A stretch of DNA of 64,000 nucleotides from Beijerinckiaceae bacterium (GTDB lineage Bacteria > Pseudomonadota > Alphaproteobacteria > Rhizobiales > Beijerinckiaceae): positions 1 through 64,000 of the forward strand of contig JAUXWZ010000085.1 of assembly GCA_030684835.1 (NCBI GenBank), written 5' to 3'. Each line of letters begins with the position of its first letter. Positions within the stretch are counted from its first letter, which is position 1. Made by a program: the position numbers and the translations under genes. The notes under the pieces were generated by a model. It was not told the DNA's origin. It saw only the letters and a list, made by a program, of their open reading frames with translations, and ran no database searches. Positions 36,536 through 40,160 of this stretch are shown one piece after another.

Positions 36536-37048
36536 TCAGTCAGCGCCAATCGCGCGCGACTTGAAGACGATGGGCGAAGCCACAGCTTTAGCAAGCGCGG
36601 CGATGTTAGGCTTTGCGCCCGCCAGCGCCTGACGCGGCGCAACGACGCCGGAAGCGCGCGAGAAGCGTGGCATTATGCGCGTCAGCAGTGAGTTTGGGGC
36701 CTCGAGCAACAGGCCACATTGTTGCGCGCGATAAGCGGCGAAATCGGCTAATTCCCTGACGAAGCCGTGCTCGGGCACGCGGCCAGCGCGCAGAATGAAA
36801 ATGCGCGACTCTTTCAGGACCGCCAGACCCGCGCCGATGAGGTCGTCGCCTGACGCCTCGACGTATTCGCAACCTGCATGGTCCGCGATTCGCGACAGAT
36901 CATCGTTCCGGGATTGCGAAGCGAGCGCAACATCCCGCACGACGCCCTCGATCGCCGCCGGCACAAGGGCCGACAACGTCCGTACGATCGCCTCGCTGGA
37001 GGGCGCGCCATTGGAGCCGTGCTGAATGAGGACCAGAGCGGAAAACAT
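36536..37048 (-). CDS. Degenerate glycosyltransferase 2 / MobA-like fold protein of unknown function
   Basis: MFSALVLIQHGSNGAPSSEAIVRTLSALVPAAIEGVVRDVALASQSRNDDLSRIADHAGCEYVEASGDD resembles the GT2 N-terminal layout, but the usual D-x-S-x-D and DxD motifs are not evident. Confidence 0.5.
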   Translation of the reverse strand: MFSALVLIQHGSNGAPSSEAIVRTLSALVPAAIEGVVRDVALASQSRNDDLSRIADHAGCEYVEASGDDLIGAGLAVLKESRIFILRAGRVPEHGFVRELADFAAYRAQQCGLLLEAPNSLLTRIMPRFSRASGVVAPRQALAGAKPNIAALAKAVASPIVFKSRAIGAD

Positions 37049-37133: not shown

Positions 37134-37148
37134 GTTCCTTATTTGTTC
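37134..37148. promoter_or_regulatory. Alphaproteobacterial LexA (SOS) box GTTC-CTTATTT-GTTC
   Basis: Exact match to GTTC-N7-GTTC, 37 bp upstream of ATG 37186. Confidence 0.65.
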
Positions 37149-37185: not shown

Positions 37186-38373
37186 ATGATGATCACGGGT
37201 GCAGTGAGGCCGAAACGGCAAGCGACCATAAAGGCTCCCGCGACCGCCAAGCCGAAAGCGGTCCCGAAAATTGCGCCCGTGGAGCTGGCGACGCTCAGGC
37301 TGCCGGATGCGCTGGCCGACCGGGCGCGCGGGCGAGGCGCCCGTTCGAACGAAAGCGGGCGATATGAGCGCGAGGCGCGCGAAATCGTCGACGACGGCTG
37401 GGACTCGCTGGCGGACCTGCCGCCGCTGCAAACACAGATCACCCACGAGCGGCCGCGAACAATCATCACCCGCAACGACTCGCCTGATATCTCGTTTGAC
37501 CGCTCCATCAATCCCTATCGCGGCTGCGAACATGGCTGCGTTTATTGTTTTGCGCGACCGAGCCACGCCTACATGGGACTGTCGCCGGGGCTGGATTTTG
37601 AAACGCGCCTGTTTGTGAAGGACGGGGCGGCGGATTTGCTGGAGCGCGAGCTTTCCGCGCAGGGCTATCAGCCCAGAACCATCGCAATCGGCACGAACAC
37701 CGACCCCTATCAGCCGATCGAGCGGCGCCATCGCGTGATGCGCTCTATTTTGGAGGTGTTGTCGCGCGCTAACCATCCCGTCGGGATTGTCACGAAGTCG
37801 GCGCTGGTGACGCGTGATCTCGATCTGCTGGCCCCGATGGCGGAGAAGGGCCTCGCCAAAGTCGCGCTTTCGATCACAAGCCTCGACCGCAAGCTGTCGC
37901 GTATCATGGAGCCGCGCGCCGCCCAGCCCGACAAACGGCTGGACGCCATTCGCCAGCTTTCAGAAGCCGGCGTGCCTACCAGCGTGATGGTCGCGCCGAT
38001 CATCCCGGCTCTCAACGACTCAGAGGTCGAGGCGATCTTGGCCGCCTCATATGCGGCTGGCGCGCGGGAGGCCGGCTACGTCATGCTTCGCCTGCCGCTG
38101 GAACTTGAAGACCTTTTCTCAGAATGGCTGCTCGCGCATTTTCCGCACCGCTACCGACATGTCATGTCGCTGGTGCGCAGTACGCGCGGCGGCAAGGCCT
38201 ACGATTCCACGTGGGGCAAGCGCATGGTGGGCGACGGCCCCTACGCGTGGATGACGGGCCGCCGTTTCGAGGTCGCCGCAACGCGGGCGGGCTTCAACAT
38301 CCAACGCCGCAAACTGCGCACAGACCTTTTCACGCGGCCGCAGCGCGCGGGAGAGCAACTGAAGCTTTTCTAA
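37186..38373 (+). CDS. PA0069-family radical SAM protein (SplB-like)
   Basis: SINPYRGCEHGCVYCFARPSHAYMGLSPGLDFETRLFVK (CxxxCxxC); IAIGTNTDPYQPIERRHRVMRSILEVL; C-terminus AGEQLKLF-stop. Confidence 0.92.
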   Translation: MMITGAVRPKRQATIKAPATAKPKAVPKIAPVELATLRLPDALADRARGRGARSNESGRYEREAREIVDDGWDSLADLPPLQTQITHERPRTIITRNDSPDISFDRSINPYRGCEHGCVYCFARPSHAYMGLSPGLDFETRLFVKDGAADLLERELSAQGYQPRTIAIGTNTDPYQPIERRHRVMRSILEVLSRANHPVGIVTKSALVTRDLDLLAPMAEKGLAKVALSITSLDRKLSRIMEPRAAQPDKRLDAIRQLSEAGVPTSVMVAPIIPALNDSEVEAILAASYAAGAREAGYVMLRLPLELEDLFSEWLLAHFPHRYRHVMSLVRSTRGGKAYDSTWGKRMVGDGPYAWMTGRRFEVAATRAGFNIQRRKLRTDLFTRPQRAGEQLKLF

Positions 38374-39512: not shown

Positions 39513-40160
39513 ATGCGCCCGACGTCGCCACCCGCCCATCCCCACTTCCGCCGAGAGCGCGCCCTTATTCGCGCCGGCGTCTGGCCGGTCGCTGGCGTCG
39601 ACGAGGCGGGACGTGGCCCCCTTGCCGGGCCGGTCGCCGCCGCCGCCGTAATTTTAGACCCAGAGAAATTGCCGAGGGGGCTCGCGGACTCGAAGGTTCT
39701 CAGCGCAGCAGAGCGGGACGATCTTTACGAAATCATCCTGTCGCGCGCGCTGGCGGTTGCGGTCGGTTTCTCGCCCGCTGGCGAGATCGACCGCATCAAC
39801 ATCCGGCAAGCCACATTGACGGCCATGTGCCGCGCGCTTCATGCCTTGCCCATCCGCGCGTCCCACGCGCTGGTGGACGGCAATGATCTTCCGCAAAAAT
39901 TTCATTGCCCGGGCGAAACGATCGTGCGGGGCGACGCCACATCAATGTCCATCGCAGCGGCCTCGATCATCGCAAAAGTCACACGTGACAGGCTGATGCA
40001 GCGCATGCACGCTGCCTATCCGCAATATGGTTTTTCCGCGCACATGGGATACGCGACGCGCGCCCATCGCGACGCCATCAGCACGCACGGCCAATGTGCG
40101 ATTCACCGGCTTTCGTTCGCGCCGTTCAAGCCCCTGCCCCTGTTCGAACAGGCGCCTTGA
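39513..40160 (+). CDS. rnhB: Ribonuclease HII
   Basis: VAGVDEAGRGPLAGPVAAAAVIL; LADSKVLSAAERD; SIAAASIIAKVTRDRLM. Confidence 0.95.
   Translation: MRPTSPPAHPHFRRERALIRAGVWPVAGVDEAGRGPLAGPVAAAAVILDPEKLPRGLADSKVLSAAERDDLYEIILSRALAVAVGFSPAGEIDRINIRQATLTAMCRALHALPIRASHALVDGNDLPQKFHCPGETIVRGDATSMSIAAASIIAKVTRDRLMQRMHAAYPQYGFSAHMGYATRAHRDAISTHGQCAIHRLSFAPFKPLPLFEQAP

Follow-up and report, generated by a model that had tools for sequence, protein, structure and literature searches.

A PA0069-family radical-SAM gene with a LexA box and a conserved clamp-binding-type C-terminus: a predicted SOS-induced, DnaN-tethered enzyme distinct from spore photoproduct lyase

The radical-SAM gene described here probably encodes an SOS-induced enzyme that is tethered to the clamp protein DnaN and whose most likely task is to reverse or modify a DNA lesion that blocks replication. 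We infer the DNA substrate only from regulation, clamp motif and fold, and judge a DNA lesion to be the fairly likely target; the reading as a whole is held slightly more firmly than this component, because it names DNA as the most likely and not as the certain substrate. In the mechanism that we infer, DNA damage would activate RecA and lead to cleavage of LexA, presumably bound in this strain at the box upstream of the start codon, and the radical-SAM gene would be derepressed. The enzyme would then bind a [4Fe-4S] cluster and SAM and generate a 5'-deoxyadenosyl radical, while its flexible tail, ending EQLKLF, would insert into the hydrophobic DnaN cleft and deliver the active site to DNA where forks have stalled or are restarting. 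Near the clamp, the radical would most likely reverse or modify a base lesion or a crosslink that blocks replication and is distinct from the spore photoproduct. The features on which this proposal is built have the following positions in the window (the whole stretch of DNA analysed, 64,000 nucleotides):

36536-37048, minus strand: divergent open reading frame starting MFSALVLIQHGSNG, with no Pfam match, 86 bp from the LexA box on its other side
37134-37148, plus strand: LexA box GTTCCTTATTTGTTC of the alphaproteobacterial GTTC-N7-GTTC type, 37 bp upstream of the ATG
37186-38373, plus strand: PA0069-family radical-SAM protein, 395 amino acids plus stop (NF033668, Pfam Radical_SAM)
37522-37548, plus strand: [4Fe-4S] cluster motif GCEHGCVYC (CxxxCxxC), residues 113-121, with Cys114, Cys118 and Cys121
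37693-37722, plus strand: segment TNTDPYQPIE, residues 170-179, at the place of (S)CYTDP in spore photoproduct lyases, with Thr170 instead of the catalytic Cys
38290-38355, plus strand: tail segment leading up to the C-terminal motif, residues 369-390, unstructured in the AF2 model
38356-38370, plus strand: C-terminal clamp-binding-type motif QLKLF, residues 391-395, conserved in the family
39513-40160, plus strand: rnhB (RNase HII), downstream of the radical-SAM gene

The open reading frame, with its ATG at 37186 and an alternative ATG at 37189, contained GCEHGCVYC and the last residues RAGEQLKLF-stop as claimed in the preliminary description. It matched the NF033668 profile (rSAM_PA0069) at 564.1 bits (cut-off 360), with positions 1-348 of 348 covered, and Pfam Radical_SAM at 68 bits. 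NF033668 is curated as a 'hypoth_equivalog' with no assigned function, and the window protein is a member that does not differ from it, with cluster, TDPYQ segment, C-terminal motif and LexA box common to both; the family description makes no mention of a clamp motif. No functional literature on PA0069 or Rv2578c was found among open-access publications, and a PDB sequence search with the protein and its profile gave weak matches only, with no solved family member. In the family alignment, a set of 128 aligned homologues from Pseudomonadota genomes, each of the three cluster cysteines was present in 128/128 members, and these cysteines were also present in SPL and Rv2578c relatives.

A fold search placed structures of spore photoproduct lyase (SP lyase, SPL) first (4fhg, 4fhc and 4k9r; E about 1e-7, TM 0.41-0.52). 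The initial characterization of the protein as SplB-like therefore stands at the level of fold and fails at that of mechanism, since the catalytic Cys is absent. Lower-ranked fold matches included SkfB, MiaB and LipA, and the substrates of most radical-SAM enzymes are proteins, RNA or small molecules. Both points would suit an SOS-induced, clamp-tethered enzyme with a substrate other than DNA, such as a protein (the clamp or a polymerase) or RNA at the fork. We regard such a substrate as rather unlikely, because the nearest solved fold is that of SP lyase, a DNA repair enzyme, and because this fold and the SOS control together favour DNA.

Conservation of the QLxLF end among family C-termini, the alignment check proposed at the outset, was borne out: in the full PA0069 alignment Q391 was present in 128/128 members and L394 in 126/128, so that the motif glutamine was as invariant as the cluster cysteines and the leucine nearly so. 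The pattern Q-x-x-[LMF]-[FLIWM] occurred within the last 16 residues of 122 of the 128 members (shuffled mean 3.7, maximum 10) and the strict motif pattern in 82 of them, versus 0.2 in shuffles. The 80 nearest relatives from the GTDB genome collection all had Q-x-x-L-[FLI] at the C-terminus or close to it. In 77 of them the last 16 residues included Q[LM]xL[FL]; the remaining three carried QMRLI, QYALL and, ahead of a tail, QLNLF (L003). No such C-terminal motif was present in 283 neighbouring open reading frames of at least 200 residues. Given this conservation and the background counts from shuffled sequences and neighbouring frames, the C-terminal motif is far beyond chance. Accepted clamp peptides include QLSLF, QMSLL and QLxLGL-type ends; about a quarter of the members had QGxLF, QQxLF or other variants at the second position, and the clamp affinity of all these variants is uncertain. 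The linker columns ahead of the motif were poorly conserved and the linker varied in length; an invariant terminal motif behind a variable linker is, on sequence grounds, the signature of a short linear motif.

Comparable ends were found more widely, the non-proteobacterial members being sampled from plasmid records only. Rv2578c-family proteins of Actinomycetota ended in QLTLL (Streptomyces), QLRLL (Nonomuraea), QEPLF (Arthrobacter) and QESLF (Tsukamurella), clostridial relatives in QLSFF, QLSFL and QLGF, a Gemmatirosa relative (Gemmatimonadota) in QLSLGI and an Aeromonas copy in QLRLF. The Rv2578c family (NF038135) shares with the window protein a homologous core, the TNTDPYQ segment and a clamp-type C-terminus, and several of its members have a Gram-positive SOS-type box; the window protein nevertheless scored 228 bits against the NF038135 cut-off of 430, and the C-terminal region differs. 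Radical SAM mobile pair protein B lacked the motif, as did the relatives in Runella and Paenibacillus, the copies on haloarchaeal plasmids and eight SPL-like proteins encoded in genomes of the window's own family. Since sister families that share the radical-SAM core lack it, we assign the motif to particular families and not to the core.

The AF2 model, only moderately confident overall (mean pLDDT 69.1), contained no secondary structure in residues 369-395; pLDDT was 82-88 for residues 371-390 and went down to 52 over the last five. Residues 371-390 may thus be largely packed on the enzyme, with the last five clearly loose in the model. The pLDDT of these residues would suit a QLxLF end that is a structural or dimerisation element, or a site for another partner, in a protein that is SOS-induced and not clamp-tethered. 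We consider this decidedly unlikely: the motif is terminal or precedes variable extensions, behind a linker of variable length; most of its variation stays within what the clamp cleft tolerates; it reappears in a separate family whose C-terminal region has diverged; and relatives built on the same radical-SAM core lack it.

Physical binding of DnaN by the C-terminal motif is thus a strong prediction, which we hold to be highly probable. The host DnaN (G000:C181:20947-22059; 371 aa) was clearly homologous to solved clamps and kept the segments TDGHRLA, FPDYxRV and YVLMPMR, which in E. coli DnaN form the lining of the peptide cleft; the same genome thus supplies a DnaN with intact pocket segments. 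Clamp clients such as Pol II, Pol IV, Pol V and MutS have a QLxLF-type peptide, and several of them are SOS-regulated. The window enzyme likewise has a short peptide of this type, whereas those clients are polymerases and mismatch-repair proteins and the candidate client here is a radical-SAM enzyme.

A true spore photoproduct lyase repairing 5-thyminyl-5,6-dihydrothymine, the reading given to 'splB' in SOS surveys, would account for SPL structures being the best fold matches and would agree with published surveys that call 'splB' a predicted photolyase (PMC3323433), yet we find it very improbable. SPL profiles scored the window protein far below their cut-offs (TIGR04070, 16 bits against 400; PF20903, 14.2 against 27), and the catalytic-Cys column of SP lyase (C140 in PDB entries) held T, I, A, S, V, G, M or P in the 128 PA0069 members and Cys in none of them. 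Cys occupied this column in three SPL-type proteins, and L265 and L266 had SCYTDP here. In three genomes of the same family (G028, G143 and G155) an SPL-type protein with this Cys was encoded in addition to a PA0069 protein. Unlike the PA0069 proteins, the SPL-type proteins of these three genomes had neither clamp motif nor LexA box. The host genome itself gave no SP lyase match at E<=1e-20. Thus, although the window protein shares with SplB (TIGR04070, PF20903; PDB 4FHC series) the radical-SAM fold, the CxxxCxxC motif and the TDP segment, spore photoproduct lyase was rejected as its identity on the profile scores and the missing catalytic Cys.

A second SPL-like group was also present in genomes of the same family (L268-L272); its members reached about 105-111 bits to TIGR04070, ended in VRYAF and had Glu where SP lyase has its catalytic Cys.

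The GTTC-N7-GTTC pattern is common on its own. It occurred at 2 sites in the window versus 1.6 expected and at 140 sites genome-wide versus 165 for the reversed control; with counts so near expectation and control, a single box is not informative by its pattern, and the weight comes from conservation across relatives. The upstream LexA box and SOS control, already claimed in the preliminary description, were upheld by this comparison, with a box upstream of the gene in 76 of 80 close relatives. GTTC-N7-GTTC preceded the gene in 71 of 79 alphaproteobacterial members (other spacings 0-2, reversed control 6) and CTGT-N8-ACAG in 32 of 48 other Pseudomonadota (other spacings 0-2), and the two types were never swapped between these groups. 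Two members without CTGT-N8-ACAG (L141 and L146) had TTAG-N6-TACTA upstream instead (TTAGCAATAATACTAA and TTAGTAATAATACTAA), presumably sites of the Xanthomonas LexA type. A perfect GAAC-N4-GTTC lay no more than 60 bp upstream of the match start in the Streptomyces and Nonomuraea copies, and the Arthrobacter copy had this site with a mismatch; some non-alphaproteobacterial members had no recognised LexA box. Because the boxes were those appropriate to each lineage (alphaproteobacterial, other Pseudomonadota, Xanthomonad and Gram-positive types), LexA control is predicted to be conserved, the gene staying under LexA-type sites while the type of site changes between lineages.

Within the host genome, GTTC-N7-GTTC was also found upstream of recA, lexA and an imuA-like gene, the last assigned from a weak RecA-profile match together with the box. 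ImuA co-occurrence was uninformative as a phylogenetic profile: nearly all genomes contained further RecA-like proteins that NF033429 matched as well, and none of its matches in alphaproteobacterial members exceeded the cut-off. For the radical-SAM gene, we predict SOS control in this strain as very likely. That C-terminal motif and box are both coincidental, as the frequency of the bare box pattern might suggest, has a practically negligible probability: chance origin was refuted by the conservation of both features in the family and beyond and by the background counts.

Consistently with this prediction, SOS regulation of SplB/COG1533 genes has been published several times. LexA control of 'splB' was predicted in alpha- and beta-Proteobacteria and read as photoreactivation (PMC3323433); SplB (COG1533) is listed in the SOS network of Bacteroidetes, with the statement that several species have it under SOS regulation (PMC8565304); a radical-SAM protein is reported in the core SOS regulon of Gram-positives and also in Balneolaeota (PMC7739468); the Streptomyces LexA regulon includes a radical-SAM gene (PMC9380542); and SplB-like genes adjoin ImuB-C (PMC3765255). 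The enzyme had been put forward as undescribed, which does not hold for its regulation and does hold for its clamp motif within the open-access literature, where no description of a bacterial clamp motif in this family turned up (a mention in a subscription journal is possible); the family-wide motif thus appears to be new. Archaeal SplB-like genes adjoin NreB, and their function has been asked about and crosslinks suggested (PMC4929162). They are likewise linked to the sliding-clamp (PCNA) pathway, in their case by gene neighbourhood, but there it is the adjacent NreB, and not the SplB-like protein, that carries the possible PIP motif; haloarchaeal plasmid-borne relatives had no obvious PIP end.

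On two haloarchaeal plasmids (L252 and L254), distant SplB-like radical-SAM genes adjoined tcmP (three-Cys-motif partner) genes, a pairing that differs from the PA0069 setting and in which the proteins had no clamp or PIP-like end.

'SplB-like' radical-SAM genes recur among the SOS genes of many phyla and have been labelled photolyases by default. The invariant candidate clamp-docking tail, absent from SP-lyase-type proteins, argues against this label and would place the enzyme at the replication fork, which is testable. We see roughly even chances that the PA0069 and Rv2578c proteins form an unrecognised multi-phylum class of clamp clients, SOS-induced and distinct in mechanism from SP lyase, that undo a replication-blocking lesion directly at the fork, perhaps a crosslink. 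If true, bacteria would possess a widespread, SOS-induced and fork-localised form of direct lesion reversal, parallel to the archaeal link of SplB-like genes with a PCNA-pathway protein.

The neighbourhood was as first reported, Pfam confirming moaB-like, rnhB and ccrM-like genes near the radical-SAM gene. In 71 of 80 relatives rnhB was downstream on the same strand (median 249 bp, often <300 bp), and its co-transcription with the radical-SAM gene is possible; in the window, a glyoxalase-like open reading frame and a minus-strand one lie between the two. RnhB C-termini, checked as a possible second clamp motif, were not conserved. A moaB-like gene preceded the radical-SAM gene in 42 of the 80 relatives, and a homologue of the divergent frame at 36536-37048, which might share the LexA operator, was divergently upstream in 37. 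Such order-level synteny is weak functional evidence.

Viral contigs contained two truncated copies only of the radical-SAM gene, and a phage collection only partial, distant radical-SAM relatives. Extra PA0069 matches, partial or containing stops, were found from a few to about 20 kb from the intact copy in three genomes (G090; G248, C1; G251, C8), which suggests duplication followed by decay.
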